Source: Paraburkholderia acidisoli (lineage in GTDB: Bacteria > Pseudomonadota > Gammaproteobacteria > Burkholderiales > Burkholderiaceae). Taken from it: a stretch of 64,000 nucleotides of DNA. The notes beneath the pieces were generated by a model. The model saw nothing but the letters and a program-made list of their open reading frames with translations, searched no databases and had not been told where the DNA came from. Made by a program: the position numbers and the translations under genes. Location of the stretch: positions 806,001 to 870,000 of the forward strand of contig NZ_CP046916.1 of NCBI RefSeq assembly GCF_009789675.1, given 5' to 3'. Within the stretch, counting starts at the first letter, position 1. Each line of letters opens with the position of its first letter. Shown one piece after another: positions 11,483 through 25,340 of this stretch.

Positions 11483-12652
11483 TTACGGTGCGCCCGGCGC
11501 GAATCGCGCGCGCGAAAACATTGACAGATCGATGCGGCTCTCGCCTTGCGTGACGCGCTCGGCGAGCGCCTCGCCGACCGCGCTCGCGAACTTGAAACCG
11601 TGCCCGGAAAAACCGGTCGCGACGTGAACGTTGGGCCGCCCCGGCGCGCGGTCGATGATGAAGTGCTCGTCGGGCGTCATGTCGTATTCGCACGCGCGGC
11701 CCATGCGCAGCGCGCCCGCATCGGGCAGATACCGCGCCAGAAAGCGCTGGAGATCGGCGAGGTCGCCGGGTTCGTCGCCGAACGACGCGAGCGGTGCCTC
11801 CACCGCGACGGGTTCGCCGCCGTCGTGGCGCCCCACCTTGAGACCGCTGCCGTCCAGATCGGGAAAACCGTAATAGGTGCCATGTGCGGTGGCGACCGCG
11901 AAGCCGGGAAAGCGCTCGGGCAAAAACACGCCTCCGGGCGCTTCGAACCACGCGAAGGTCTTGCGCACGCGTGCCACCGGTAACGCGCAATCGAGCGCGG
12001 CAAGCAGCGGTTGCGTCGCCTTGCCGGCGCAGACGATCAACGCGCGCGCGGCGAAGGTCTCGCCGCGCGCCGTGACCGCTTCGACCTGTTCCGCCCCATG
12101 CCACTGGAGGCGCGCGACGCGCGTGTGGGTGCGCAGCGTCGCGCCGTGCGCCAGCGCCAGTTCGCGGTAGGCCCGGATGGCGCGCTCGCAATAGAGCACA
12201 CCGCCGTTGGGTTCGAAATTGACGATGTGCTGCGCGCCAAGGCGCCACGCGGGCCAGCGCGCGCTCGCTTGCGTGCCGTCGAGCGTCTCGAGCGGCAGGC
12301 CGTGGCGCGCGGCGCTCAGTTGCACCTGGCCGAGAAACGCGTCGCCGGGCGAACCGATATTGACGATGCCGGTGCGCGCGAAGATCGTGGTTCGCGCGTC
12401 GCGTTCGAGCGCTTCCCAGAGGGTTTGCGCGCGCAGCGCGAGCGGCACGTAGGCCGCGCCTTCACCATAGGCGTGGCGTATCAGCCGCGTGGCGCCGTGA
12501 TGCGCGCCCTGGTCGTGCGGCGGGTCGCCCGCGTCGACGAGCAACACCCGTTGGCCCGCGCGTGCGAGATGGTAGCCGGCCGCCATGCCCATCGAACCGG
12601 CGCCGACGATGAGCGTGTCGAAACCGCGATTGTCGCCGTGTAAATCCTGCAT
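11483..12652 (-). CDS. solA: N-methyl-L-tryptophan/sarcosine oxidase-type flavoprotein
   Basis: FAD-dependent amine oxidase of 389 aa, the usual length for the SolA/monomeric sarcosine oxidase family. The Rossmann motif is VGAGSMGMAAGYHLARAG (about residues 16-33). Near the C-terminus ACEYDMTPDEHFIID contains the Cys that carries covalent FAD in this family, followed by GFSGHGFKFA. It would oxidise a secondary N-methyl amino acid to the amino acid, formaldehyde and hydrogen peroxide in the cytosol. The exact substrate (N-methyltryptophan, sarcosine or another) cannot be fixed. It appears monocistronic. Confidence 0.88.
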   Translation of the reverse strand: MQDLHGDNRGFDTLIVGAGSMGMAAGYHLARAGQRVLLVDAGDPPHDQGAHHGATRLIRHAYGEGAAYVPLALRAQTLWEALERDARTTIFARTGIVNIGSPGDAFLGQVQLSAARHGLPLETLDGTQASARWPAWRLGAQHIVNFEPNGGVLYCERAIRAYRELALAHGATLRTHTRVARLQWHGAEQVEAVTARGETFAARALIVCAGKATQPLLAALDCALPVARVRKTFAWFEAPGGVFLPERFPGFAVATAHGTYYGFPDLDGSGLKVGRHDGGEPVAVEAPLASFGDEPGDLADLQRFLARYLPDAGALRMGRACEYDMTPDEHFIIDRAPGRPNVHVATGFSGHGFKFASAVGEALAERVTQGESRIDLSMFSRARFAPGAP

Positions 12653-13385: not shown

Positions 13386-13413
13386 TTGACGGATTGTATG
13401 ACAAGAATATAAT
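13386..13413 (+). promoter_or_regulatory. Sigma-70 promoter of the hydroxyacid/lactone operon
   Basis: -35 TTGACG (13386-13391) and -10 TATAAT (13408-13413) are separated by 16 bp. This is one of the best promoters visible in the window and points toward the 13-gene unit starting at 13658. The spacer is occupied by a GntR-type operator. Confidence 0.8.
13394..13404. promoter_or_regulatory. GntR (FadR-type) operator in the promoter spacer
   Basis: TTGT-ATG-ACAA is a perfect palindrome with a 3-bp centre, the form bound by FadR-branch GntR repressors. Wider arms TTCTTG (13383-13388) and CAAGAA (13402-13407) surround it. It lies between -35 and -10, so a bound repressor would block RNA polymerase. 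A second exact match to TTGT-N3-ACAA is at 20391-20401, and a half-conserved one is at 24624-24634 ahead of the GntR gene. Confidence 0.75.
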
Positions 13414-13657
13414 CCGCCTCATGCATGGCGGTTCGCGGGTCGGCGTCGAGTCGATCGACACGGACAAAAGCCAATCGCGAAGGCGGGCGCCACGCGCCCC
13501 GCACAGAACATCCAAGCCATCGGAGACACCCCTTCATGCACCGCACCGCCGGCCGCGCCGAGGCTCCCGCCTCGAGACTTTCCCGCCGATCCCGCCCACG
13601 CTGATCGCGCCCGCCGCCGCGCCCTCGATAGCCAACACCAACAAGGACACCCGAGAC

Positions 13658-14467
13658 ATGTCATCGCCGATCGAGAACTACCGCATTTACGCCGTCAAAT
13701 ACGCCCATTTCGAGCGCCGTTCGTATCACAACTTCCTCGGCGGCGACACGCACGACGTGCCCATGCCGCTCGATTATTTCGTGTGGGCGGTGGTGGGCCG
13801 CGAGCGGACGTTCATCGTCGATACCGGTTTCGATCAGGCCATGGCGGACAAGCGCGGCCGCACCATCACGAACACGGTGGAAACGGGGCTCGGCAAGATC
13901 GGTATCCGCGCGCACGACGTCAAGGACGTCATCATCACGCACATGCATTACGACCATGCGGGCAACCACGCGCTGTTTCCGCAGGCGCGCTATCACCTGC
14001 AGGATCGCGAGATGGCGTATTGCACGGGCCGCTGCATGTGCCATCACGCGCTCAGCCATCCGTTCGAGCCGGAAGACGTGAAGGCGATGGTCGGGCGCCT
14101 GTTCGACGGCCGCGTGCAGTTTCACGAAGGCGCCTCGGAGGTCGCGCCCGGCATTAGCGTGCATTGGGTGGGCGGCCACACGAATGGCCTGCAGATCGTG
14201 CGCGTGCACACCGAAAACGGCTGGGTCGTGCTGGCCTCGGACGCCTCGCACTTCTACGCGAACATGGACGATCACCGGCCGTTCCCGGTGGTCTACAACG
14301 TCGGCGACATGCTCGAGGGCTACGAAACCGCACACCGTCTCGCAAGCTCGCACGCCCAGGTGATTCCGGGCCACGATCCCGCGGTGCTGTCGCGGTTCCC
14401 CGCGCACGATCGCGAGACCGAAGGCTGGATCGTGCGGGTCGATGCGCCCATGCGGAGCGATCGATGA
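13658..14467 (+). CDS. MBL-fold lactonase (N-acyl homoserine lactonase-like)
   Basis: Protein of 269 aa with the metal motif HMHYDHAGN (about residues 91-99), then HWVGGHTNGLQIV, ASDASHFYAN and a final PGHDPAVL: the full set of two-metal ligands of the AttM/AiiB-type lactonase branch. These enzymes open lactone rings by hydrolysis in the cytosol. As first gene of a catabolic operon, a metabolic lactone is at least as likely a substrate as a quorum signal. ATG 13658 was chosen because the homologous domain starts here; the frame is open upstream. The stop overlaps the next start by 4 nt (ATGA). Confidence 0.88.
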   Translation: MSSPIENYRIYAVKYAHFERRSYHNFLGGDTHDVPMPLDYFVWAVVGRERTFIVDTGFDQAMADKRGRTITNTVETGLGKIGIRAHDVKDVIITHMHYDHAGNHALFPQARYHLQDREMAYCTGRCMCHHALSHPFEPEDVKAMVGRLFDGRVQFHEGASEVAPGISVHWVGGHTNGLQIVRVHTENGWVVLASDASHFYANMDDHRPFPVVYNVGDMLEGYETAHRLASSHAQVIPGHDPAVLSRFPAHDRETEGWIVRVDAPMRSDR

Positions 14468-15249
14468 GCTTGCGAGGCAAAGGCGCGCTCGTGACCGGTT
14501 CGTCGAACGGACTCGGTCTCGCGATGGCCACGGCGCTCGCGCAGGCGGGCTGCGATATCGTGCTGCACGGGCTCGAAGCGCCGCACGCGATGGTCGAATC
14601 GTGCGAAACGCTCGCCCAGCGCTGCGACGTGCGCGTGAGTTACGTGCAGGCCGATCTCACCGAAGTCGCGGGCGTGGACGCGCTCATGGACGCGGCGCTC
14701 GCGCGGCTCGGCACACTCGACGTGCTCGTCAACAATGCGGTCGTGCGCCACTTCGCGGGCATCGACGCCTTTCCGCTCGAACGCTGGCAGGAAGCGCTGG
14801 CGGTCAATCTCACGGCGGCGTTTCGCGCGATCCAGCGCGCGCTGCCGGGCATGCGCGAGCGCGGCTTCGGGCGCGTCTTCAACATGACCTCGGTGTATGG
14901 CTCGCGCGCCGTGGCGAATCGGGTCGATTACGTGACGACGAAAACGGCGCTGATCGGCATGACGCGCTCGGTCGCGCTCGAAACGCTCAAGCACGGCATT
15001 ACGTGTAACGCGATCTGCCCGGGCTCCGTGCTCACGCCCAACATCGACGGCCGGATCAACGAACTCATGCAGGCGCGCGAACTCGACCGCGACGCGGCGG
15101 TGCGCGCGTTTCTCGAAGGCAAGCAGCCGACCGGCGAGCTGATCGAGGCCGCGCACGTGGGCGAACTCGTGGTGTTCCTCTGCGGCCCCGCGGCGGCGCA
15201 CATCACGGGCGCGACCATGCCGATCGAAGGAGGCTGGCTTGCAGGCTGA
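14464..15249 (+). CDS. SDR family NAD(P)-dependent oxidoreductase (3-hydroxybutyrate dehydrogenase-like)
   Basis: Short-chain dehydrogenase of 261 aa. Cofactor motif TGSSNGLG lies at about residues 11-18, NNAVVRH replaces the usual NNAG, the catalytic Ser is in MTSVYGS, and the YxxxK pair is in VDYVTTKTAL. The C-terminal ICPGSVLTPNID and IEGGWLAG are typical of the classical family, and overall it resembles D-3-hydroxybutyrate dehydrogenases. It would oxidise a secondary alcohol, plausibly the hydroxy acid released by the lactonase. It is translationally coupled on both sides: ATGA with the lactonase, and an 11-nt overlap with MmgE/PrpD. Confidence 0.9.
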   Translation: MSLRGKGALVTGSSNGLGLAMATALAQAGCDIVLHGLEAPHAMVESCETLAQRCDVRVSYVQADLTEVAGVDALMDAALARLGTLDVLVNNAVVRHFAGIDAFPLERWQEALAVNLTAAFRAIQRALPGMRERGFGRVFNMTSVYGSRAVANRVDYVTTKTALIGMTRSVALETLKHGITCNAICPGSVLTPNIDGRINELMQARELDRDAAVRAFLEGKQPTGELIEAAHVGELVVFLCGPAAAHITGATMPIEGGWLAG

Positions 15250-16615
15250 TCTTCGCGTTTCATCGTCGATGCAAAGCGGCGTGACGGACACGCTCGCGCG
15301 TTTCGTCGCGCGCGCGCAATGGGCCGATGTGCCCGCCGACGTGCGGCACGAAGCCAAACGCGCGCTGGTGAACTATTTCGCCGTGGCGCTCGCGGGCGCG
15401 CACGATCCGACCATCGACAAAGCCGTGAACGTGTATGCGCGTTTTCGCGCGAACGAAGACGCCACGCTCGTCGGGCGCGGAGAACGCAGCGACGTGCTCA
15501 ATGCGGCCGCGCTCAACGCCATGAGCGCGAACGTGTTCGATTTCGACGACACGCATCTGCCCACCATCATTCATCCGGGCGCGCCCGTGGCTGCGCCGTT
15601 GTTCGCGCTCGCTCAGGACACGCGTCAAGCGCGTGCGCTCAGCGGCGAGGCGCTGCTGCTCGCGTTCGTGCTAGGCGTGGAAGCGGCATGCCGGATCGGC
15701 AATGCGGTGTCGCCGGAGCACTATCAGCGCGGTTGGCACATCACGTCCACCTGCGGCGTGTTCGGCGCGGCGGCGGCCGTGGCGCGTGCCATCGGGCTCG
15801 ATGCGCGCGGCACGGCATGGGCGCTCGGCAACGCGTCGGCGCAAACGGGCGGGCTCGTGGAAACGCTGGGCACGATGTCGAAAAGCATCGGCGTGGGCAA
15901 TGCCGCGCGCAACGGCATGTTGGCGGCGCTGCTCGCCCAGGTCGGCTTTTCCGGGCCGGCCGCGCCGCTCGAAGGCGAACGCGCCTTCCTGCGTTGCGCG
16001 GCCACGCAGCCCGATTTCGGCGCGATTACCGAAGGGCTCGGCCGCGACTGGGCGTTGCGCGCGAACATGTACAAGCCGTATCCCTGCGGCGTGGTGCTCA
16101 ACCCGGTGATCGATGCGTGTCTCGCGCTGCATGGCGCCGCGCTCGATGCGATCGAATCCGTCGAACTGCGCGGCCATCCGCTCTTGCGCGAACGCACGGA
16201 TCGCCCCGGCGTCACGAGCGGGCGCGCCGCGCAGGTGAGCGCGCAACACGCGGTGGCGGTCGCGCTGGCGCGCGGCCGCGCGGGCCTCGCGGAGTTCAGC
16301 GACGCCACCGTGGCCGAGCCGCCCTTGCGCGCGCTCGGCCAGCGTCTGCGCTTTATCGACGAACCCACGTGGTCGGTGGAATCCGCCGAAGTCACGCTCG
16401 TGCTGCGCAGCGGCGAACGCATGACGCAGCACGTGGCGGCCGCGCGCGGCAGTCTGGCCGCGCCGCTCAGCGACGCTGCACTCGAAGCCAAGCTCCGCGA
16501 GCTGGCGGCCTGCCACGGCGCGAACCTCGACGTGGACGCATTGCTCGCGCAACTCTGGGCGCTCGACACGGCGCCCGATGCGGCCGCCGTGATGCGTGCC
16601 GCGCGACCGGCATAA
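15239..16615 (+). CDS. MmgE/PrpD family protein
   Basis: Protein of 458 aa, normal length for MmgE/PrpD (2-methylcitrate dehydratase, cis-aconitate decarboxylase and related iminodisuccinate epimerases). Visible landmarks are ANVFDFDDTH, where the family carries active-site Asp/His residues, and MYKPYPCGVVLNPVIDACL, containing the conserved K-Y-P-C. The TTG at 15239 is preferred because AAGGAGG sits at correct spacing; ATG 15269 is the alternative. In this operon it most plausibly dehydrates, isomerises or decarboxylates a polycarboxylate or beta-hydroxy acid. The reaction is not determined. Confidence 0.88.
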   Translation: MQADLRVSSSMQSGVTDTLARFVARAQWADVPADVRHEAKRALVNYFAVALAGAHDPTIDKAVNVYARFRANEDATLVGRGERSDVLNAAALNAMSANVFDFDDTHLPTIIHPGAPVAAPLFALAQDTRQARALSGEALLLAFVLGVEAACRIGNAVSPEHYQRGWHITSTCGVFGAAAAVARAIGLDARGTAWALGNASAQTGGLVETLGTMSKSIGVGNAARNGMLAALLAQVGFSGPAAPLEGERAFLRCAATQPDFGAITEGLGRDWALRANMYKPYPCGVVLNPVIDACLALHGAALDAIESVELRGHPLLRERTDRPGVTSGRAAQVSAQHAVAVALARGRAGLAEFSDATVAEPPLRALGQRLRFIDEPTWSVESAEVTLVLRSGERMTQHVAAARGSLAAPLSDAALEAKLRELAACHGANLDVDALLAQLWALDTAPDAAAVMRAARPA

Positions 16616-16672
16616 CGGACCGGAGTAACGAATACACAGCATACCGAAGTTTTATCGAAGCGAGGACTGAAC

Positions 16673-17599
16673 ATGAGTCAGGCAACAACGGAGCAGCGCG
16701 GTGCGCCGCTCGGATTCGTAGGCGTGGGAACGATGGGCCGGCCGATGGCGCGCCGCCTCCTGCAGGCAGGACACGCGCTGGTGGTGTTCGACCGCGACGA
16801 AGCGGCGGTGGCGGAACTGGTTGCGCTCGGCGCGCAGGCCGCGAAGTCCGTGCGCGAAGTCGCGGACCGCGCGCGCATCGTGTTCACGAGCCTGCCCACG
16901 CCCGCAATCTTCAAGGACGTGGCGATCGGCGCGAACGGCTTGCTCGAAGGCGAGACGCTGAAGATTCTCGTCGATCTTTCGACAGTGGGCTCGCGCACCG
17001 AGAAGGAAGTGGCCGCGGGCCTGCGCGCCAAAGGGATCGAAACCGTGGATGCGCCCGTGAGCGGCGGCGCGGCCGGTGCGCAGAAGGGCTCGCTCGCGAT
17101 CATGGCGGCGGGCGCGAGCGCGGCGGTCGAGGAAGTGCGGCCGCTGTTCGACGTGCTCGGCAAGGTGTTCGTGGTGGGCACCGAAGCCGGCCAGGGCCAG
17201 TTGCTCAAGCTGCTCAACAACATGCTGTCGTCCACGGCGTTCGCGATCACCTCCGAGGCGTTCGTGGCCGGCATGCGCGGCGGCCTCGACCCCGAAGTGA
17301 TGATTTCGGTCATCAACGCGGGCAGCGGCAAGAACGGCGCGACGCTCGACAAATTCCCCAAACACGTGTTGCCGCGCTCGTTCGACTTCGGCTTTCCGGT
17401 GGGCAGCGTGTGCAAGGACATCGGTCTGGCCGTGGACGAATGCCAGGCGCTGGGCGTGCCGATGTGGGTGGGCAACGTCGCGCGCCAGATGTGGAACTAC
17501 GCGGCCATGCAGGACGGCGCCGCGCGCGACATGACCGAACTCGTGCGCTACGTCGAACGCTGGTCGTCGACCGACGGACTCGAAGACTCGCAAGCATAA
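16673..17599 (+). CDS. 3-hydroxyisobutyrate dehydrogenase-like oxidoreductase, paralogue 1
   Basis: Protein of 308 aa of the beta-hydroxyacid dehydrogenase family. The Rossmann loop is FVGVGTMGRPMARRL, the substrate loop DAPVSGGAAGAQKG, and the catalytic Lys lies in LLKLLNNMLSS. Members oxidise 3-hydroxyisobutyrate, tartronate semialdehyde, D-glycerate or similar beta-hydroxy acids with NAD(P), producing an aldehyde or ketone. It follows MmgE/PrpD by 57 bp. It is the first of three paralogues in this operon, which suggests several successive or alternative beta-hydroxy acid steps. Confidence 0.88.
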   Translation: MSQATTEQRGAPLGFVGVGTMGRPMARRLLQAGHALVVFDRDEAAVAELVALGAQAAKSVREVADRARIVFTSLPTPAIFKDVAIGANGLLEGETLKILVDLSTVGSRTEKEVAAGLRAKGIETVDAPVSGGAAGAQKGSLAIMAAGASAAVEEVRPLFDVLGKVFVVGTEAGQGQLLKLLNNMLSSTAFAITSEAFVAGMRGGLDPEVMISVINAGSGKNGATLDKFPKHVLPRSFDFGFPVGSVCKDIGLAVDECQALGVPMWVGNVARQMWNYAAMQDGAARDMTELVRYVERWSSTDGLEDSQA

Positions 17600-17620
17600 C
17601 GAACGATATTGGAGAACAGC

Positions 17621-17947
17621 ATGATTGTTGAAATGCGCATCTATCACTGCGCGCCGACGCGTCTGCCGGCGTTGCTCGACCGCTTCTCGTCCACCACGCT
17701 GGGCTTCTTCGAGAAGTACGGCATCAAGCCGATCGGGTTCTGGACCACGCTGATCGGCGAGAGCAATCACTCGCTCACGTATCTCGTGCAGTGGGAGAAC
17801 CTCGCCGAGCGCGAGCAGAAGTGGAACGCGTTCCAGGCCGATGCGGAATGGATCGCGAAGCGCGCTGCGAGCGAGGCGGAGCGTCCTATCGTCGAGCGGA
17901 TCGAGAGCCATATTCTCGCGCCCACGGCTTTCTCGCCGCTGCGTTAA
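17621..17947 (+). CDS. NIPSNAP family protein
   Basis: Protein of 108 aa with the dimeric alpha/beta-barrel NIPSNAP fold: start MIVEMRIYHCAPTRLPALL, central YGIKPIGFWTT and YLVQWENLAEREQKW, end SHILAPTAFSPL. Small NIPSNAP proteins often lie in catabolic operons for unusual organic acids, and their activity is mostly unknown. ATG 17621 has TTGGAGAACAGC upstream. It sits between two dehydrogenase paralogues with gaps of 21 and 12 bp, so it is surely cotranscribed. Confidence 0.88.
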   Translation: MIVEMRIYHCAPTRLPALLDRFSSTTLGFFEKYGIKPIGFWTTLIGESNHSLTYLVQWENLAEREQKWNAFQADAEWIAKRAASEAERPIVERIESHILAPTAFSPLR

Positions 17948-17959
17948 GGAGCGTGCCTC

Positions 17960-18871
17960 ATGACTGACTCCAAGCAGGCGCCGCGCAAGATCGGCTTTAT
18001 CGGCCTCGGCATGATGGGCACGCCGATGGTGCAATGCCTCGTCAACGCGGGTTACGCGCTGTATCTCGACGACGCCGACGCATCGCGCGCCGACACGCTC
18101 GCCGCACAAACGGGCGCGCAACGTCTCACGGCCGCCAATGCGGCCGAACTCGACGCGCTCATCACCATGCTGCCGAACTCGGCGATCGTGGAAACCGTAC
18201 TGCTCGGCGCGGGTGCGAGCGGCTGGGCAAGCCGCCTGACGGCGGGCACCGTCGTGATCGACATGAGTTCCTCGGAGCCGGAGCGTTCGCGCAAGCTCGG
18301 CGCCATGCTCGAAGAACGTGGCCTCGCGTATCTCGACGCGCCGGTCTCGGGCGGCGTGAAGAAAGCGAAGGAGGGCACGCTCGCGATCCTGATCGGCGGG
18401 CGGGCAGACGTGGCCGAACGCTGCCATGCGCTGCTTTCGGCAATGGGCAAGAGCCTGCTGCATATCGGCGGCGCGGGCGCGGGCCATGCCGCGAAGGCGC
18501 TCAACAACTACGTGTCGGCGGCCGGGCTCGCGGCCACGGTGGAGGCGCTGCACGTGGCCGAGCGCTTCGGCATCGAGCCGGGCGTGATGACGGACGTGCT
18601 CAACGCTTCCTCGGGCCGCAGCAATACCTCGGAAAACAAGGTCAAGCAGTTCATGTTGAGCGGCACCTTCGGTTCCGGTTTCGCGCTGCAACTGATGAAC
18701 AAGGACATCAAGATCGCCGCCGCGCTCGCGCAATCGGTGGGCTACCCCATGGCGCTCGGCACGACCTGCGCCGCGCTCTGGAACGACGCCGCGCAGCGCG
18801 CCACGCCCGCGACCGATCACACCGAGATGTACCGCATGCTGCCGCTCGACGCCGAAAAGAACGCGGGCTGA
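17960..18871 (+). CDS. 3-hydroxyisobutyrate dehydrogenase-like oxidoreductase, paralogue 2
   Basis: Protein of 303 aa. Rossmann loop FIGLGMMGTPMVQCLVNAG, substrate loop DAPVSGGVKKAKEG, catalytic Lys in AAKALNNYVSAAG. The C-terminal helix motif NKDIKIAAALAQSVGYPMAL is typical of the family. The start follows AAGGAGCGTGCCTC. It is clearly diverged from paralogue 1, so it is an old duplication or separate recruitment. With the aldehyde dehydrogenase 46 bp downstream, a hydroxy acid to semialdehyde to acid sequence is plausible. Confidence 0.88.
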   Translation: MTDSKQAPRKIGFIGLGMMGTPMVQCLVNAGYALYLDDADASRADTLAAQTGAQRLTAANAAELDALITMLPNSAIVETVLLGAGASGWASRLTAGTVVIDMSSSEPERSRKLGAMLEERGLAYLDAPVSGGVKKAKEGTLAILIGGRADVAERCHALLSAMGKSLLHIGGAGAGHAAKALNNYVSAAGLAATVEALHVAERFGIEPGVMTDVLNASSGRSNTSENKVKQFMLSGTFGSGFALQLMNKDIKIAAALAQSVGYPMALGTTCAALWNDAAQRATPATDHTEMYRMLPLDAEKNAG

Positions 18872-18917
18872 CAAGCAGGCGAAAAGCAGGCTGAAATTCA
18901 ATCGATACGGAGTGCTT

Positions 18918-20357
18918 ATGTCTATCGAAGTGCATAGCGGCGAGTTTTATGTCGATGGCGCCTGGGTGGCGCCGGCCGCGCCGCGCTGGTTCGACGTGAT
19001 CGATCCGGCCACGGAAGCCCCGGTTGCGCGCCTCGCGCTCGGCGACGCCACCGACGTGGATCGCGCCGTGGCCGCCGCACGCCGCGCGCTGCCCGCGTGG
19101 TCGGCCACGAGCGTGCAGGAGCGCGTGGCGCTGCTCAGGCGCGTGGTGGAGCGTTACGAGCAACGCTACGACGACTTCGCGGAACTGATGCGCCGCGAGA
19201 TGGGCGCGCCCATCGCATTCGCGCGCAGCGGCCAGGCCGCGCGCGGTCCCGCGCATCTGAACGCGTTGATCGACGTGCTCGAACGTTTCGAGTTCGAGGA
19301 GCAGCGCGGCAGCACGCGCGTCGTGCTCGAACCGATCGGTGTCTGCGGCCTCATCACGCCATGGAACTGGCCGATCAACCAGATCGTCGTGAAGATCGCG
19401 CCCGCGCTCGCGGCCGGTTGCACGATGGTGCTCAAGCCCAGCGAATATTCGCCGCTGAGCGCGTTGTTGTTCGCCGAGGTGCTCGAAGCAGCGGGCTTGC
19501 CGCGCGGCGTGTTCAATCTCGTCAACGGCGACGGCCCCGGCGTGGGCGAAGCGATCGCGCGCCATCCCGACATCGACATGGTCTCGTTCACCGGCTCGAC
19601 GCGCGCGGGCGTGCTCGTGGCCGAAGCGGCCGCCACCACGGTCAAACGCGTGGCGCAGGAACTGGGCGGCAAGTCGGCGAACATTCTGCTCGACGACGTC
19701 GATCTCGAGGCGGCCGTTACGCGCGGTGTGGCCGCGTGCTTCACGAACTCGGGCCAATCGTGCTCGATTCCCACGCGCATGATCGTGCCGCGCCATTTGC
19801 TCGAAGCCGCGGAAGCGATCGCGCAGAAAGCGGCGCAAGCGTATCGCGTGGGCCCCACCGACGATCCCGCCACGCAACTCGGCCCGCTCGTGAACCGCAA
19901 CCAGTTCGAGCGCGTGCAAATGCTGATCCAGAAGGGCATCGACGAAGGTGCGCGCCTCGTCACGGGCGGCACGGGCAAGCCCACCGGACTCGAACGCGGT
20001 TACTACGTGAAGCCCACGGTGTTCTCGCAGGTCACACCCGAGATGACGATAGCGCGCGAGGAAATCTTCGGCCCGGTGCTCTCGATCATGGGCTACGACA
20101 GCGAGCAGGAAGCCATCGCCATCGCGAACGGCACGGAATACGGCCTGGCCGCGTACGTGCAGTCGGGCGACCTCGAACGCGCGCGCAAGGTAGGCCGCGC
20201 ATTGCGCGCGGGCGGCGTGCATTTGAACTATCCGCCCGCCGACTTTCACGCGCCGTTCGGCGGCTACAAACGCTCCGGCAACGGCCGCGAATGGGGCGAG
20301 GCGGGGCTGCGCGAGTATCTGGAAACGAAGTCGATGGTGGGCTACGGCGCGCCCTGA
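18918..20357 (+). CDS. NAD(P)-dependent aldehyde dehydrogenase
   Basis: Protein of 479 aa, standard length. It has the NAD site PWNWPINQIV, LKPSEYSPLSA, the general-base Glu in AQELGGKSAN, the catalytic Cys in TNSGQSCSIPTR, the second Glu in EEIFGPVLSIMGY, and the tail GGYKRSGNGREWG. It oxidises an aldehyde to a carboxylic acid in the cytosol and is the expected partner of the upstream beta-hydroxyacid dehydrogenases. ATG 18918 was preferred over GTG 18912 by spacing from ACGGAG. Confidence 0.92.
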   Translation: MSIEVHSGEFYVDGAWVAPAAPRWFDVIDPATEAPVARLALGDATDVDRAVAAARRALPAWSATSVQERVALLRRVVERYEQRYDDFAELMRREMGAPIAFARSGQAARGPAHLNALIDVLERFEFEEQRGSTRVVLEPIGVCGLITPWNWPINQIVVKIAPALAAGCTMVLKPSEYSPLSALLFAEVLEAAGLPRGVFNLVNGDGPGVGEAIARHPDIDMVSFTGSTRAGVLVAEAAATTVKRVAQELGGKSANILLDDVDLEAAVTRGVAACFTNSGQSCSIPTRMIVPRHLLEAAEAIAQKAAQAYRVGPTDDPATQLGPLVNRNQFERVQMLIQKGIDEGARLVTGGTGKPTGLERGYYVKPTVFSQVTPEMTIAREEIFGPVLSIMGYDSEQEAIAIANGTEYGLAAYVQSGDLERARKVGRALRAGGVHLNYPPADFHAPFGGYKRSGNGREWGEAGLREYLETKSMVGYGAP

Positions 20358-20390
20358 GCGTGTTGCCGTAAAAAATTTTGCGCCGCGCGC

Positions 20391-20401
20391 TTGTCCGACA
20401 A
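20391..20401. promoter_or_regulatory. Second GntR operator, inside the operon
   Basis: TTGT-CCG-ACAA, a perfect palindrome of the same TTGT-N3-ACAA form as the site at 13394-13404. It lies in the 123-bp gap between the aldehyde dehydrogenase and the carboxymuconolactone decarboxylase-like gene. A weak promoter overlaps it (TTGCCG 20373-20378, GACAAT 20397-20402, 18-bp spacer), so the downstream half may have its own repressed start. Confidence 0.65.
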
Positions 20402-20480
20402 TCAGCCCCGAAGACACGCGCGGTGCATCGAATCGATGAAGCATTGACGAAGCACGACACAACACAGAGAGGAATCCGAA

Positions 20481-20876
20481 ATGAGTGACAACGAGCGTTT
20501 CGAAGCCGGTTTCGAAAACCGCAAGGAAGTGCTGGGCGCGGCGCACGTGGAAAAGTCGTGGGCCAACGCCGACGACTTCAACCGCCCGATGCAGAAGTAC
20601 GTGACCGAATGCTGCTGGGGCGACATCTGGGGCGACCCCACGCTGCCGTTCAAGACGCGCAGCCTGCTCAACCTCGGCATGCTCACGGCCATGAGCCAGC
20701 ATCACGAACTCGCGGTGCACGTGAAGGGCGCGCTGCGCAACGGGGTGACGAAGGAGGAAATTCGCGCGGTGCTCATGCAGGCCGCCATTTACTGCGGCGT
20801 ACCGCTCGCGCTCGCGGCGTTCCGCGTGGCAACCGACGCGATCAAGGCGTACGAAGCGGAGAAAGCCGCGGCGTAA
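20481..20876 (+). CDS. Carboxymuconolactone decarboxylase family protein (PcaC-like)
   Basis: Protein of 131 aa with the all-helical CMD fold and the PcaC arrangement: CCWGDIWGDPTLPFKTRSLL, then GMLTAMSQHHELAVHVKGAL, and GVTKEEIRAVLMQAAIYCGV. It lacks the AhpD-type CxxC redox motif, so it resembles true gamma-carboxymuconolactone decarboxylases that remove carbon dioxide from a lactone. The neighbours are not the protocatechuate pathway, so its actual substrate differs or is unknown. Ribosome site AGAGAGGAATCC. A GntR operator lies 80 bp upstream. Confidence 0.9.
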   Translation: MSDNERFEAGFENRKEVLGAAHVEKSWANADDFNRPMQKYVTECCWGDIWGDPTLPFKTRSLLNLGMLTAMSQHHELAVHVKGALRNGVTKEEIRAVLMQAAIYCGVPLALAAFRVATDAIKAYEAEKAAA

Positions 20877-20959
20877 GCCGCCGCAACCCACGCAGTCGCA
20901 CGGCAAGCCCACTATAAACGCGCGCATCGAACGGTGCGCCAAACCAGTTGGAGACAAAG

Positions 20960-22318
20960 ATGAAAACCCTGGCTGCAACCGACGTCGTTCAGCACGAACG
21001 CGAGGAGTCGATCGAGGCGAAGCGGCGCAACGCCATCAAGGGCGCGTTCTTCTCCGAGTACATCGACATGTTCGACATCTACCTGCCGGTGGTCGTGCTG
21101 TCGCCCGTGCTCGCGTTCTTCCAGCCGCCGCATCTGTCGGCCGGCATGGAGACGATCCTCGCGTCGCTCGTGTTCATCACCACGCTGCTGGGCCGCCCGG
21201 TGGGCGCGCTGATCTTCGGCATGATCGCCGACCGCGTGGGCCGTCGCAAGGCGTCGATCTATTCGGTGTCGGGCTTCGGCGTTATCACGTTGCTGATCGC
21301 GTTGCTGCCGGGTTACGAGAGCATCGGCATCACGTCTTACTGGTTGCTCGTGCTGCTGCGTTTCGTGGACGGCATCTTTCTCGGCGGCGGCTATACCGGG
21401 GCCATGCCGCTCGCGATCGAGTACTCGAAAAAGCACCAGCGCGGCTTCGTGGGCGGCTTCATCATCGCGGGCTTTCCGGCCGCTTACGTGTCGATCAATC
21501 TGGTCGCCATGCTGATGTTCGCGGTGTTCCCGCTCAACGGCATCCATTCGCCGTACGCGCAATGGGGCTGGCGCATTCCGTTCGTGCTGGGCGCCGTGCT
21601 CGCGGGCTTGCTCGCGCTGTACTACGTGCACAAGGTGGCCGAGTCGGAAATCTGGAAGAGCGAGACCGCCGATAAAGCGGGCGAGAGCGCTGTGCAGGCA
21701 GAAAAGCTGCCGCTGAGCGATTTGCTGCGCGGCAAGAGCGGCCGCAGCCTGTTGCAGGTGCTGGTGATGATGACGGGCTTCTGGCTCACGCAGAACATCA
21801 TCACGATCTTTCTGCCGACCGGGCTGCTGTTCAAGACGCTGCATCTGACCGGTTTCCAGATCACGCTCACGCTGATGATCACGTATTTCGTGCTGTTCTT
21901 CAGCTATATCGCCTCGGGCATGATCGGGCAACGCATCGGGCGCCGCCGCTTCTTCGCCATTCTCGGCCCCGTGATCGCCACCGTGGGCGCGGGCCTGCTC
22001 TACGTGCTCGCCAACGTCGACCTCACACTGCCCGCCATCATCGCCATTACCTGCGTGCTGGCGGTGATCGTCACCTCGCCGTGGGGCGTGATCGTCACGT
22101 ACATCAACGAGCGCTTCGTGACCGATGTGCGCGCAACGGGCTTCGGCGTGGGTTTCAGCCTCTCGGTGATCATCCCGTCGTTCTACGCGTTCTACATGAA
22201 TGCGCTGAGCGCGTTCATGCCGCTGCGGCTCACGCCGGTCGCGCTGCTTTGCGTGGGCGGTTTGATCGGCGCGATCGGTGCGCTGATGGGACCGGAAACC
22301 AAAGATGTGGACTTCTAA
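20960..22318 (+). CDS. MFS transporter, organic/aromatic acid type
   Basis: Protein of 452 aa with 12 predicted membrane helices. The cytoplasmic N-terminus is followed by FFSEYIDMFDIYLPVVVLS. The MFS loop 2-3 motif GMIADRVGRRKASIYS is present and its counterpart SGMIGQRIGRRRFFAI lies between helices 8 and 9. The layout fits proton-coupled uptake of small carboxylates (MHS/AAHS-like). It is the only transporter in the catabolic unit, so it probably imports the growth substrate. ATG 20960 follows TTGGAGACAAAG. Confidence 0.88.
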   Translation: MKTLAATDVVQHEREESIEAKRRNAIKGAFFSEYIDMFDIYLPVVVLSPVLAFFQPPHLSAGMETILASLVFITTLLGRPVGALIFGMIADRVGRRKASIYSVSGFGVITLLIALLPGYESIGITSYWLLVLLRFVDGIFLGGGYTGAMPLAIEYSKKHQRGFVGGFIIAGFPAAYVSINLVAMLMFAVFPLNGIHSPYAQWGWRIPFVLGAVLAGLLALYYVHKVAESEIWKSETADKAGESAVQAEKLPLSDLLRGKSGRSLLQVLVMMTGFWLTQNIITIFLPTGLLFKTLHLTGFQITLTLMITYFVLFFSYIASGMIGQRIGRRRFFAILGPVIATVGAGLLYVLANVDLTLPAIIAITCVLAVIVTSPWGVIVTYINERFVTDVRATGFGVGFSLSVIIPSFYAFYMNALSAFMPLRLTPVALLCVGGLIGAIGALMGPETKDVDF

Positions 22319-22343
22319 GCAATCAGAACAGGAAGGAATGACG

Positions 22344-23246
22344 ATGAACAAGGAGCGCATAGGCTTTATCGGCCTCGGCAACATGGGCGGGCGCATGACG
22401 CGGCGTCTCGTGGACGCGGGCATTCAGGTGCTCGGCTTCGACACCGTGCGCGAGCGCGTGGACGCGGCGGGCGCGCAAGCCGCCGCCACCGTTGCCGACG
22501 CCGTGAAATTCGCCGATGTCGTGATGATGTCGCTGCCCGACAGCAAGGTCGTGGAAGCCGTGGTGGAAGGCCCGGACGGCGTGCTGGCGCAGTGCCGCGC
22601 GGGGCAGATCGTGGTGGATCTGAGCACGGCCGCGGCCAGCTCGACGATCCGCCTCGCGAAATTGTTCGCCGAGCGCGGCGTGCAGTACGTGGACGCGGGC
22701 ATCTCCGGCGGCGCGGCGGCGGCCGAGAAAGGCAAGCTCACGCTGATGGTGGGCGGCGACACGCAAGCCGTGCAGGCACTGCAATGGGCGTTCGCGCCCA
22801 TCGCAACGAAAGTCGCGCACATGGGCGAGAGCGGCGCGGGCCACACCACCAAGCTGCTGAACAACTTCCTCAACGCGGTGAGTCTCGCGGCCAGCGCGGA
22901 AGTGATGGTGGCGGGCAAGAAGGCCGGGCTCGATCTGCATCTGCTGCTCGACGTGCTTAACAGCAGCAGCGGCGTGAACTTCGCCACGCTCAACCGGTTT
23001 CCGAAGATTGTCGACGGCGATTATCTCGAAGGCGGTCTCACCGGCAAGCTCATGACGAAGGACGTCGTGCTCTATGTCGATCGCGCGCGCGAGCTGGGTG
23101 TGGTGTCGCTCAACGCGTCCGGGCCGCTGGCGAGCTTCGGTCTCGGCACGGCGCTCGGTTACGGCGACGTCATCAGCAATCGCGTGGTGGATGCCATCGG
23201 CGACGTCTCGGGCGGCGTGCGGCTTCACGACAAGAAGGCAGGATAA
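22344..23246 (+). CDS. 3-hydroxyisobutyrate dehydrogenase-like oxidoreductase, paralogue 3
   Basis: Protein of 300 aa. Rossmann loop FIGLGNMGGRMTRRLVDAG, catalytic Lys in TTKLLNNFLNA. The substrate loop reads DAGISGGAAAAEKG, with Gly-Ile in place of the usual Pro-Val seen in the other two paralogues, so the substrate may differ. The start at 22344 is favoured by GGAAGGA 8 nt upstream; ATG 22338 would overlap that site. It is 25 bp from the MFS gene and 31 bp from the cupin gene. Confidence 0.87.
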   Translation: MNKERIGFIGLGNMGGRMTRRLVDAGIQVLGFDTVRERVDAAGAQAAATVADAVKFADVVMMSLPDSKVVEAVVEGPDGVLAQCRAGQIVVDLSTAAASSTIRLAKLFAERGVQYVDAGISGGAAAAEKGKLTLMVGGDTQAVQALQWAFAPIATKVAHMGESGAGHTTKLLNNFLNAVSLAASAEVMVAGKKAGLDLHLLLDVLNSSSGVNFATLNRFPKIVDGDYLEGGLTGKLMTKDVVLYVDRARELGVVSLNASGPLASFGLGTALGYGDVISNRVVDAIGDVSGGVRLHDKKAG

Positions 23247-23277
23247 CGAAGCAATTCGAAACAACGGAGCAATCAGC

Positions 23278-23673
23278 ATGAAGGTATTTCACGGCAGGGC
23301 GGAAGGTGGCAAGTCGGAACAACGCGGCGCGACGTTTACGGGCGTGGTGTATGCGGATCCGGTGATGGCGCCCACGGACGGCGTGACCATCAACACGGTG
23401 TTTTTCTCGCCGAGCGCGCGCACGTTCTGGCACACGCACGAGTACGGTCAGGTGCTGACCGTCACGGCCGGGCGTGGCTGGGTCTGCAAGGAAGGCGAGC
23501 CGCCGCAGGAGATCCGTCAAGGCGACATCGTCTTCATCGGGCCGAACGAGCGTCACTGGCACGGCGCGAGCGACGCGAGCTACATGGTGCATATCGCCAC
23601 GTCGCTCGGTTCGGCCACCTGGCAGGAAGAAGTGGCCGAAGCCGATTACCCGCAAGGGCTGAACGCGCGCTGA
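23278..23673 (+). CDS. Cupin domain protein
   Basis: Protein of 131 aa with a single beta-barrel cupin. Motif 1 is FWHTHEYGQVLTVTAGRGWV, with the metal-binding HTH...Q spacing, and motif 2 is IGPNERHWHGAS. Small cupins of this sort are frequently encoded beside CMD-family proteins and are thought to act as isomerases or decarboxylases, or to bind metabolites. ATG 23278 has ACGGAGCAATCAGC upstream. A long intercistronic hairpin follows the stop. Confidence 0.88.
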   Translation: MKVFHGRAEGGKSEQRGATFTGVVYADPVMAPTDGVTINTVFFSPSARTFWHTHEYGQVLTVTAGRGWVCKEGEPPQEIRQGDIVFIGPNERHWHGASDASYMVHIATSLGSATWQEEVAEADYPQGLNAR

Positions 23674-23674
23674 G

Positions 23675-23721
23675 CGGGTTTCAGGCCGATGCGGGGTGCG
23701 CTCCGCATCGGCGAAAACCCG
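23675..23721. other. 47-bp two-step intercistronic hairpin
   Basis: Inner perfect 10-bp arms GCCGATGCGG (23685-23694) and CCGCATCGGC (23703-23712) and outer perfect 7-bp arms CGGGTTT (23675-23681) and AAACCCG (23715-23721) form one long stem-loop right after the cupin stop. No U-tract follows, and the next operon gene starts 47 bp later. It is more likely an RNA-stabilising, processing or attenuation element than a simple terminator. Confidence 0.7.
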
Positions 23722-23767
23722 TTGGATCATTCGCGCAGAATGTATTGAAAACAGGAGACACGCAGCA

Positions 23768-24565
23768 ATGACACCCGTGGAAGCCACGCGCGATCGAGAC
23801 GATCACGGCACCCCGCGCGATCCGCAACGTATCAAGGACGATTTCGTGCGCGTGCACGGCACGTGGAACGCCGCGTGGGAAAGCATGCTGCGGCTCGACG
23901 CGGGTTTCGTCGATGCGTACGTCGCGTTTTCGGGCGTGCCGCAACGGCGCAATCATCTGGAACCCAAGGTGCGCGCCTTTATCGCGCTGGCCGCCGACGC
24001 GTGCGCCACGCAGCTTTACGCGCCCGGCGTCGCGCAGCATATCGACGCGGCGCTCGCGTGCGGCGCGACGCGCGAGGAGTTGATGGAAGTGCTCGAACTC
24101 GTGAGCACGATCGGCATTCATACGAGCAACGTGGGCGTGCCCGTGCTGCTCGAAGTGCTCGAAGAGGAGGGCCTGCGCGCGGGGCCGGCGGCGCTCAGCG
24201 AACGTCAGCTCGCGCTCAAGGAAGCGTTCACGCGCAATCGCGGCTACTGGCATCCCACGTGGGAAGGCCTGCTCGAACTCGATCCGGATCTGTTCGAGGC
24301 GTACGTGGCGTTTTCTTCGGTGCCGTGGCGCACGGGCGTGCTGAGCCCGAAGGTAAAAGAGTTCATGTATTGCGCCTTTGACGCGTCCTCCACGCACCTC
24401 TACGTGCCGGGGCTGAAGTTGCACTTCCGCAACGCGCTGCGTTACGGCGCGACGGCCGAGGAATTGATGGAATTGCTCGAAATCGTCAGTACGACGGGCA
24501 TTCACGGCGCGGAACTCGGCGCGCCCTTGCTCGAAGCCGCGCTCGCGCGGCGCGAGGCCGGCTGA
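23768..24565 (+). CDS. Two-domain carboxymuconolactone decarboxylase-like protein
   Basis: Protein of 265 aa made of two tandem CMD/AhpD-like domains. Domain 1 contains TQLYAPGVAQHIDAALACGA and TREELMEVLELVSTIGIHTS; domain 2 contains THLYVPGLKLHFRNALRYGA and TAEELMELLEIVSTTGIHGA. The near identity of these segments shows internal duplication. Neither domain has the CxxC pair, so it is not an AhpD-type peroxidase; the conserved His remains. Its role in the pathway (decarboxylase, hydratase or lactone-handling) is open. ATG 23768 follows CAGGAGACACGCAGCA. Confidence 0.85.
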   Translation: MTPVEATRDRDDHGTPRDPQRIKDDFVRVHGTWNAAWESMLRLDAGFVDAYVAFSGVPQRRNHLEPKVRAFIALAADACATQLYAPGVAQHIDAALACGATREELMEVLELVSTIGIHTSNVGVPVLLEVLEEEGLRAGPAALSERQLALKEAFTRNRGYWHPTWEGLLELDPDLFEAYVAFSSVPWRTGVLSPKVKEFMYCAFDASSTHLYVPGLKLHFRNALRYGATAEELMELLEIVSTTGIHGAELGAPLLEAALARREAG

Positions 24566-24623
24566 AAACCACACCCTCGTTTAGGGAAATGGCGCGCGGT
24601 GCAGTATCATACCGGCTGGAACT

Positions 24624-24634
24624 TTGTCGGACGG
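24624..24634. promoter_or_regulatory. Half-conserved GntR site ahead of the GntR gene
   Basis: TTGT-CGG-ACGG matches the TTGT-N3-ACAA operator in its left half, and its first nine bases equal the reverse complement of the site at 20391-20401. It lies 11-21 bp before the GntR start, where binding would give negative feedback. The right half is degenerate, so support is modest. Confidence 0.4.
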
Positions 24635-24644
24635 GAAGACAATA

Positions 24645-25340
24645 ATGTCGACTGATATTGGTTTGGTGCGGCCCGAAACGCTGCGTCATCAGGTCGAAAA
24701 CGTGCTGCGCCAGGCCATCATGAGCGGCCGCTTCGCGCCGGGCGCGCGCCTCATCGAACGCGAACTCTGCGAGTCGCTCGGCGTGAGCCGCACTTCGGTG
24801 CGCGAGGCGCTGCGCAAGCTCGAGGCGGAAAAACTCGTGCGCAACGTGCCGCACAAGGGCCCCGTGGTCGCGGTGATGTCGCGCGAGGAAGCCGCAGAGT
24901 TGTACGCCTTGCGTGCACTGCTCGAGGGGTTTGCCGCGCACGAATTCGCGCGCGTCGCGAACGACGCGACCATCGAGCGCTTCGGCGAAGCCGCGAAGGA
25001 ACTGCGCGTGCAAGCCACGGCGCAGAGCCAGGAAGGCGTGTTGAAGGCCAAGACGGCGCTCTACGACGTGCTGCTCGATCACTGCGGCAACAGTCTCGTG
25101 AAGGAAATTCTCACGAGCCTGTATTCGCGTGTGAATCTGCTGCGCGCGACTTCGCTGATGCATCCCGACCGGCTGCCGAGCAGCCTGAGCGAAATCGACA
25201 AGCTCTACGAGGCGCTCAAGGCGCGCGACGCGGATAAGGCGCAGGAACTGGCGCGCCAGCACGTGCTCAATGCGGAGAAAGCCGCGATGCGCATGCTCGA
25301 CGGCAACAATGCCGCAACGGGCGAGGGCGAAGAGGCTTGA
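24645..25340 (+). CDS. GntR family (FadR subfamily) transcriptional regulator
   Basis: Protein of 231 aa. The winged helix-turn-helix occupies residues 8-75, with RFAPGARLIERELCESLGVS then RTSVREALRKLEAEKLV. The FCD ligand domain spans residues 85-215, with YALRALLEGFAAHEFAR and the DHCGNSLVKEIL region. It closes the catabolic unit on the same strand, 79 bp after the two-domain CMD gene. By position and by the FadR-like operator copies at 13394 and 20391 it is the probable repressor of the operon, released by a pathway acid. The start has a GGGAAGAC site. Confidence 0.9.
   Translation: MSTDIGLVRPETLRHQVENVLRQAIMSGRFAPGARLIERELCESLGVSRTSVREALRKLEAEKLVRNVPHKGPVVAVMSREEAAELYALRALLEGFAAHEFARVANDATIERFGEAAKELRVQATAQSQEGVLKAKTALYDVLLDHCGNSLVKEILTSLYSRVNLLRATSLMHPDRLPSSLSEIDKLYEALKARDADKAQELARQHVLNAEKAAMRMLDGNNAATGEGEEA

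Follow-up and report, generated by a model that had tools for sequence, protein, structure and literature searches.

A conserved, probably co-regulated gene cluster of Paraburkholderia acidisoli, likely devoted to lactone and beta-hydroxy-acid catabolism

The window analysed here is a stretch of 64,000 nucleotides of the Paraburkholderia acidisoli genome (contig NZ_CP046916.1, positions 806,001 to 870,000; the genome counts 7.95 Mb in five contigs), and it carries a cluster of thirteen plus-strand genes between positions 13658 and 25340. The cluster is real, conserved and, as judged from its sequence, probably co-regulated. It is read with good confidence as a GntR-controlled, NAD-linked system of lactone and beta-hydroxy-acid catabolism drawn from two modules. 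The best explanation as a whole, favoured with somewhat less assurance, is a catabolic island under a GntR/FCD regulator in which two modules share a lactonase and likely act on a hydroxymethyl-branched short-chain acid; this preference stands mainly for the general reading, and the hydroxymethyl-branched acid, taken separately as the substrate class, is a tentative proposal. The interest of the cluster is that of an orphan pathway amenable to study; it is not put forward as a new kind of system.

A reading-frame check of the window places the genes in the order MBL-SDR-MmgE-HIB1-NIPSNAP-HIB2-ALDH-CMD1-MFS-HIB3-cupin-CMD2-GntR, with intergenic gaps of -4 to +123 bp, and each of the thirteen family calls exceeds its curated Pfam cut-off. 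This bears out the first-pass annotation of the window, which had listed thirteen same-strand genes of these families with small gaps or overlaps. That annotation had also let the unit begin at position 13386, which is the -35 box of a promoter, whereas the first gene begins at 13658. In the following list, module A refers to MBL-NIPSNAP-HIB2-ALDH-CMD1-MFS-HIB3-cupin-CMD2-GntR and module B to SDR-MmgE-HIB1 next to a lactonase.

13386..13413, plus strand: promoter of transcription unit 1 (TTGACG-N16-TATAAT), whose spacer contains the operator (sequence pattern, conserved in relatives)
13394..13404, no strand: site 1, operator-like palindrome TTGTATGACAA, probable GntR repressor site (pattern conservation)
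13658..14467, plus strand: MBL-fold lactonase resembling acyl-homoserine lactone (AHL) lactonases, 269 aa (Pfam and conserved metal-binding positions)
14464..15249, plus strand: SDR dehydrogenase, 3-hydroxybutyrate-dehydrogenase-like, 261 aa, module B (Pfam, NCBIfam, conserved Ser/Tyr/Lys)
15269..16615, plus strand: MmgE/PrpD protein, 448 aa, module B, with IDS-epimerase as nearest solved relative (Pfam and structure match)
16673..17599, plus strand: HIB1, beta-hydroxy-acid dehydrogenase, 308 aa, module B (Pfam, NCBIfam, conserved residues)
17621..17947, plus strand: NIPSNAP protein, 108 aa, module A (Pfam)
17960..18871, plus strand: HIB2, beta-hydroxy-acid dehydrogenase, 303 aa, module A (Pfam, NCBIfam, conserved residues)
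18918..20357, plus strand: aldehyde dehydrogenase (ALDH), 479 aa, module A in most proteobacterial copies (Pfam, NCBIfam, conserved Cys/Glu)
20391..20401, no strand: site 2, operator-like palindrome TTGTCCGACAA, start of transcription unit 2 (conserved position)
20481..20876, plus strand: CMD1, PcaC-like carboxymuconolactone-decarboxylase-family (CMD) protein, 131 aa, module A (Pfam, NCBIfam)
20960..22318, plus strand: MFS permease of the metabolite:H+ symporter type, 452 aa, module A (Pfam; below the subfamily cut-off)
22344..23246, plus strand: HIB3, divergent beta-hydroxy-acid dehydrogenase, 300 aa, marker of module A (Pfam, conserved residues)
23278..23673, plus strand: cupin related to (R)-mandelonitrile lyase, 131 aa, module A (NCBIfam, structure alignment)
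23768..24565, plus strand: CMD2, two-domain CMD protein, 265 aa, module A (Pfam; close relative of PDB 2q0t)
24645..25340, plus strand: GntR/FCD-family regulator, 231 aa, proposed repressor (Pfam GntR and FCD domains)

Conservation of this block within the genus was followed with HIB3 as the query (E <= 1e-80) in 144 Paraburkholderia genomes, and HIB3 was found in 40 of them, the window's own included. The stretches around HIB3 were taken from all 39 other genomes, reaching some 4-5 kb past the block at either end and less far in the short stretches L168 and L169; together with the window they make up the 40 loci compared. Gene order and strand are the same for the full set of thirteen in 24 of these, and L139 and L151 depart from the full order only through a split match. 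MFS, HIB3, cupin and CMD2 are each present in every locus, followed by ALDH and CMD1 (39/40), MmgE, MBL, SDR and NIPSNAP (38/40), GntR (37/40), HIB1 (35/40) and HIB2 (33/40). The lactonase lies on the opposite strand in 11 loci, HIB1 and HIB2 are both missing from three fetched stretches, and HIB2 alone is missing from two. The cluster genes are judged to be linked by selection because HIB3 occurs in 40 of the 144 genomes and the exact order in 24 of the 40 loci. The four reading frames flanking the cluster in the window, sought in the 39 fetched stretches, gave a single match, one frame in L131. The conservation counts and these unconserved flanks thus set the block boundaries near those first drawn, yet the block is not all-or-none. 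The test of conserved gene order suggested at first pass, run here in Paraburkholderia, upholds the shared order but does not support a single, indivisible thirteen-gene unit: its modules also occur apart, and HIB1 or HIB2 is missing from some loci of the genus. Adjoining the cluster on the minus strand (11483-12652) is a gene that, by eye, is FAD-dependent-oxidase-like, a relative of which is cluster-adjacent in one of the 39 stretches (L131). In an even sample of the phylum (398 genomes, E <= 1e-70), HIB3 was found solely in the window's own genome. No second copy of the cluster was found there: HIB3 has a single match at E <= 1e-80, and none lies around the other eight MmgE matches.

Co-regulation is suggested by the gaps of the cluster. 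The sigma-70-like promoter that starts at 13386 agrees with the consensus at 11 of 12 positions. The palindrome TTGTnnnACAA occurs twice in the 64-kb window, at 13394 and 20391, both times in cluster gaps, for an expectation of 0.24 per window; two occurrences are reached in 2 of 100 shuffles. Site 1 sits between the -35 and -10 boxes, and the 28-base pattern of promoter plus operator (one degenerate base) is exact in 23 of the 39 fetched relatives, and also in L009. Before the first gene, site 1 is itself exact in 4 of the 39 relatives and shows one mismatch in 31. Site 2, in the ALDH-CMD1 gap, is exact in 35 of the 39 and has one mismatch in 2 more; it was not found in L158, and the stretch of L169 does not extend over this gap. 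On Sodalis plasmid pHS1, the lactonase is preceded by a close copy of the promoter that contains the exact palindrome. Related sites lie in the GntR-CMD1 gap of Acidiphilium, flank GntR on either side in Herbiconiux and precede HIB2 in Caballeronia, and three Pseudomonas loci have one-mismatch sites before HIB2 and CMD1. The regulator has GntR and FCD domains, and the palindrome is conserved at the cluster promoters. The two conserved palindromes imply two transcription units under one repressor, and this arrangement supports co-regulation of both units by the linked GntR protein, which would bind the sites and repress transcription from them.

Two results speak against this regulatory scheme. 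No site, up to one mismatch, lies near the core in L015, L019, L021, L023 and L024, and TTGTNNGACAA is not enriched genome-wide, with 22 matches (palindromes counted twice) versus 55 for the reversed control, so that conserved position is the sole evidence for the operator. Outside the cluster, TTGTNNGACAA has 14 matches in the own genome. A wider regulon was considered and rejected, as none of the six outside matches that were read (L176-L181) precedes an obvious catabolic operon; the matches in L178, L179 and L180 are intergenic, and the other three fall within predicted reading frames. The intergenic match in L179, at C1:126748-126758, is upstream of an MBL-fold-hydrolase-like frame.

The composite nature of the cluster emerges from more distant bacteria. 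A scan of public genomes with a HIB3 alignment required two exact peptide words, and its counts are lower bounds; at least 12 loci carry HIB3 relatives at 62-90% identity, after which identity falls to 43% among the matches listed. These 12 loci span beta- and gammaproteobacteria, actinobacteria and one unassigned metagenome-assembled genome, and other cluster genes adjoin HIB3 in every one of them. Plasmid pHS1 of Sodalis praecaptivus carries ten module A genes in order, without SDR-MmgE-HIB1. The cluster of Acidiphilium plasmid pACRY02, flanked on both sides by transposase genes, comprises GntR, CMD1, a HIB2-like gene (43%), MFS, another lactonase, another SDR, HIB3, cupin, CMD2 and NIPSNAP, and lacks both ALDH and SDR-MmgE-HIB1; part of the same reduced core is found in the actinobacterial loci. 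Module B is met by itself on Variovorax SRS16 plasmid 3 and in Sphingobium EP60837, where SDR-MmgE-HIB1 stands beside a lactonase and a LacI regulator in the 18.8-kb stretches covered (in Variovorax: SDR 56%, MmgE 65%, HIB1 65%, lactonase 66% and a CMD 51%). HIB3, cupin and CMD2 were not found in these two stretches, and a search of all plasmid records with HIB3 (E <= 1e-60) returned 10 records, neither of the two among them. The position of SDR-MmgE-HIB1 also varies, as it is placed after GntR in Caballeronia (L014), after an Acidiphilium-type lactonase in three Pseudomonas loci and mostly between lactonase and NIPSNAP in Paraburkholderia. Because each module occurs without the other in other bacteria, the window cluster looks like a composite of two modules with a common lactonase, and SDR-MmgE-HIB1 is taken to be an accessory module.

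In the archaeon Natronosalvus (L124), a 40% CMD2 relative lies among thiolase genes, roughly 10 kb away from SDR, MmgE and HIB-like genes; this locus was judged unrelated. Sphingobium EP60837 carries a second AHL-lactonase-family gene (L125:11866-12744), possibly of the benzoxazinoid type, near a dioxygenase and a maleylacetate reductase.

The unit as first annotated is not the complete one usual in the genus. Indeed, 35 of the 40 loci have a second MFS permease gene linked to the cluster. In 24 of them it immediately precedes the lactonase, and in the other 11 it lies at another place in the block, ahead of MmgE. The remaining stretches, namely those of the window, L131, L144 and the short L168 and L169, lack it. 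In L144, short pieces resembling both ends of the permease gene appear, as read by eye, to be left between promoter and lactonase, and the window retains the promoter, now with a 244-base leader behind it. The best paralogue of this permease in the own genome (47-48%) is on C2 with an MmgE gene, and its neighbours show a distant relationship to genes of itaconate/mesaconate degradation, none reaching its NCBIfam cut-off; this region (C2:236000-255000, L182) groups a CoA-transferase, a C-C lyase, a MaoC hydratase, an acyl-CoA dehydrogenase, MmgE and MFS.

The second permease is nearest to the aromatic-acid:H+ symporter family, which bears on the possibility of an aromatic-derived lactone pathway, with NIPSNAP, CMD and MBL acting as muconolactone isomerase, 4-carboxymuconolactone decarboxylase and enol-lactone hydrolase, respectively. 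Such a pathway would also fit the score of CMD1, which nears the PcaC model (TIGR02425) with 141.3 of 155.7 bits, and the presence in Variovorax of a 67% lactonase relative near ring-hydroxylating dioxygenase genes. The beta-ketoadipate lactone steps (PcaC, PcaD and CatC) likewise bring together proteins of lactone-isomerase, decarboxylase and lactone-hydrolase type. However, Pfam detects no ring-cleavage or CoA-dependent family among the 13 genes, the PcaC cut-off is missed by CMD1 as well as by CMD2 (24.4 bits), the hydrolase fold is another one, and three beta-hydroxy-acid dehydrogenases have no known role in the beta-ketoadipate route; the NIPSNAP analogy is itself a resemblance of folds. 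This explanation is rather improbable, and the aromatic origin entertained at first pass comes down to three hints, namely the family of the missing permease, the score of CMD1 and the Variovorax neighbours.

The enzyme evidence supports a catabolic role for the lactonase, the beta-hydroxy-acid dehydrogenases and the CMD proteins under common regulation, and the catalytic positions checked are invariant in the copies matched. None of the listed NCBIfam models (best 25 of 226 for SDR, best 25 of 41 for ALDH, best 25 of 26 for GntR) reaches its cut-off for any of the 13 proteins, and MmgE and NIPSNAP have no match; the first description of the cluster as having no assignable substrate is therefore fair on sequence annotation. 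The lactonase scores 59.5 bits with Pfam PF00753 (cut-off 22.7) and has HxHxDH plus a later His, Asp and His, the seven metal positions being invariant in 51 of 51 copies. Its nearest families are the AHL lactonases, and BxdA, of the same annotated family, acts on the plant benzoxazolinone MBOA (PMC11297187). Both points would suit quorum quenching or detoxification, in which the lactonase would degrade either acyl-homoserine lactones or a plant lactone that is toxic, the other genes being a loosely attached neighbourhood. Nevertheless, all AHL-lactonase equivalogs (AiiA, AidB, AhlS, AttM and YtnP, cut-offs of 360-475 bits) are widely missed, with a best score of 62.7 bits, against 375 required for AiiA, and the linkage of the lactonase to dehydrogenases, permease and regulator is conserved, with common operator-like sites. 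Quorum quenching or detoxification is accordingly very improbable. On a Sulfitobacter plasmid (L128:8714-11665), a 46% lactonase relative is found with a quinol-monooxygenase-like protein, a 3-oxo-tetronate kinase and an aldolase; this neighbourhood suggests sugar-acid lactones as possible substrates for part of the lactonase family.

Catalytic residues are equally constant in the other enzymes, with the Ser/Tyr/Lys of SDR invariant in 42 of 42 copies and the Cys and Glu of ALDH in 46 of 46. Beta-hydroxy-acid dehydrogenases rely on a catalytic lysine, an asparagine pair and a Ser-Gly-Gly substrate motif. All of these are found in HIB1, HIB2 and HIB3, the lysine and the asparagine pair being invariant in 40, 45 and 53 copies, respectively, and the serine being replaced by threonine in one of the 53 HIB3 copies. 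The substrate motif of HIB3 is altered, reading DAGISGG versus DAPVSGG in HIB1 and HIB2. The aspartate that marks NAD preference in these dehydrogenases occurs in every copy of HIB1 and HIB3 and in 42 of the 45 HIB2 copies. The cut-offs for 3-hydroxyisobutyrate dehydrogenase and tartronate semialdehyde reductase (291.6 and 340.75 bits) are reached by none of the three (HIB1 187.3 and 208.0, HIB2 188.5 and 201.9, HIB3 180.5 and 160.1). The best solved match of HIB3 is 2-(hydroxymethyl)glutarate dehydrogenase (PDB 3cky; 171.9 bits, the next at 144.9), an enzyme of nicotinate fermentation; this nearest solved relative is yet distant. A single-sequence structure prediction of HIB3 was unusable (mean pLDDT 37.6). 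MmgE matches IDS-epimerase best among solved proteins (152.6, the next kind at 116.6).

The cupin is similar in length to (R)-mandelonitrile lyase (PDB 4bif) and has its His/Gln set: His-x-His-x3-Gln...His-x-His is shared by all copies and the solved protein aligned with them, and four His and one Gln, the metal ligands, are invariant in 53 of 53. The window cupin differs in its score, since it obtains 125.7 bits with the (R)-mandelonitrile lyase model (NF049940), below the cut-off of 140. CMD2 is close, over 248 of its 265 residues, to PDB 2q0t, a protein named only as a putative gamma-carboxymuconolactone decarboxylase subunit. A CxxC pair is the hallmark of AhpD-kind peroxidases; none was seen in CMD2 at the positions inspected, and a peroxidase role of this kind is therefore unlikely.

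From these elements, a course of catabolism can be proposed. The GntR protein would repress 13658-20357 and 20481-25340 until bound by a pathway intermediate. The MFS permease would import an organic anion, and the MBL enzyme would open a lactone. The three dehydrogenases, with their NAD-type Asp, would oxidize a beta-hydroxy acid bearing CH2OH on the carbon beside the carboxylate to a semialdehyde, and ALDH would oxidize the aldehyde; CMD1, CMD2 and the cupin may remove CO2 or split a C-C bond. Module B would feed in a further isomer or analogue, with MmgE as epimerase or dehydratase. The nearest solved relatives of HIB3 and MmgE, taken with the lactonase, weakly favour a hydroxymethyl-branched, lactone-closing acid, as do the MmgE/PrpD protein PA0881, reported as a likely methylsuccinate isomerase (PMC9875883), and the itaconate/mesaconate-like surroundings of the permease paralogue. 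Candidate substrates, weakly indicated, are lactone-forming acids such as paraconate/hydroxymethylsuccinate or the fungal hydroxyparaconate/itatartarate pair. In its boldest form, the proposal would make the cluster the first catabolic route for fungal or plant hydroxymethyl-branched lactone acids, proceeding through lactone opening, CoA-free oxidation of CH2OH by HIB enzymes, decarboxylation by CMD proteins and cupin to a central C4 acid, and MmgE as epimerase; this version has a small chance of being right.

Several facts count against the hydroxymethyl-branched acid. The resemblances of HIB3 and MmgE to solved enzymes are distant, the permease missing from the window belongs to an aromatic-acid symporter family, and PA0880, described as the hydroxyparaconate lactonase, has 127 residues and carries the annotation of a ring-cleaving dioxygenase (PMC9875883). 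Moreover, two actinobacterial copies have a flavin monooxygenase beside the lactonase, better suited to a cyclic ketone. The core might then handle such a ketone or its lactone: a Baeyer-Villiger-type monooxygenase would form the lactone, MBL would open it and SDR, HIB, ALDH and CMD would shorten the chain, while Paraburkholderia would import the lactone or hydroxy acid directly. The monooxygenase genes concerned (L023:6655-8100 and L021:6827-8263; 59% alike) end less than 50 bases from the lactonase, directly upstream, the best named family of the L023 enzyme is (neo)pentalenolactone D synthase, and lactonase and SDR accompany the core in most versions. Nevertheless, this match to a known Baeyer-Villiger family is distant (199 of the 1100 bits needed), and a search with the L023 enzyme at E <= 1e-10 in the window and 14 related loci, copies from Paraburkholderia, Caballeronia, Pseudomonas and Acidiphilium included, hit nothing beyond itself and L021. 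No flavin monooxygenase gene is annotated in the Sodalis stretch either. The cyclic-ketone explanation is rather unlikely. The vicinity of L021 also contains two DUF6282 proteins and GH2/GH3 glycosidases.

Among the closest described systems is the Pseudomonas aeruginosa cluster PA0878-PA0886 for itaconate and branched short-chain dicarboxylates. It also includes an MmgE/PrpD protein, PA0881, a likely methylsuccinate isomerase compared there to IDS epimerase, as well as a lactonase acting on a lactone with a hydroxymethyl branch and what may be a dedicated transporter (PMC9875883). It differs by its CoA-dependent core of CoA-transferase, hydratase and C-C lyase (PMC9875883); no itaconate-type member of these three is found among the 13 genes, their distant relatives lying elsewhere in the genome (L182, below NCBIfam cut-offs). 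In the same study, neither hydroxyparaconate nor itatartarate served engineered P. putida as a carbon source (PMC9875883). The bxd cluster of Microbacterium is likewise headed by a lactonase of the AHL-lactonase family and has an ALDH and an NAD(P)-dependent oxidoreductase, whereas it counts 15 genes, including a VOC-family protein (PMC11297187), a family that Pfam does not detect among the 13. A direct match was rejected on account of this VOC protein and of a main text that names neither carboxymuconolactone nor cupin nor hydroxyisobutyrate (PMC11297187). The L-ascorbate, apionate, tropate, pyridoxine, trigonelline and deoxyribonate pathways are characterized by other key families and were set aside for that reason. 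No published pathway assignment of the gene set was found in the open-licence literature of PubMed Central (PMC), in agreement with the first-pass annotation, which knew of no described pathway.

Elsewhere in the window, three segments (37509-38666, 41790-42158 and 45898-46830) match a porin protein of P. largidicola.

The cluster provides a pathway-sized enzyme set with a candidate repressor site, whose core recurs in alpha-, beta- and gammaproteobacteria and in actinobacteria. The operator gives a ready reporter for finding the inducer, and the cluster would set both PDB 2q0t and the cupin family, known for a nitrile-lyase activity, in a metabolic context. If the route through hydroxymethyl-branched lactone acids were true, it would give a natural role to the mandelonitrile-lyase cupins and to the 2q0t structure, and a route of hydroxyparaconate/itatartarate utilization would be new, as far as the literature covered shows (PMC9875883).

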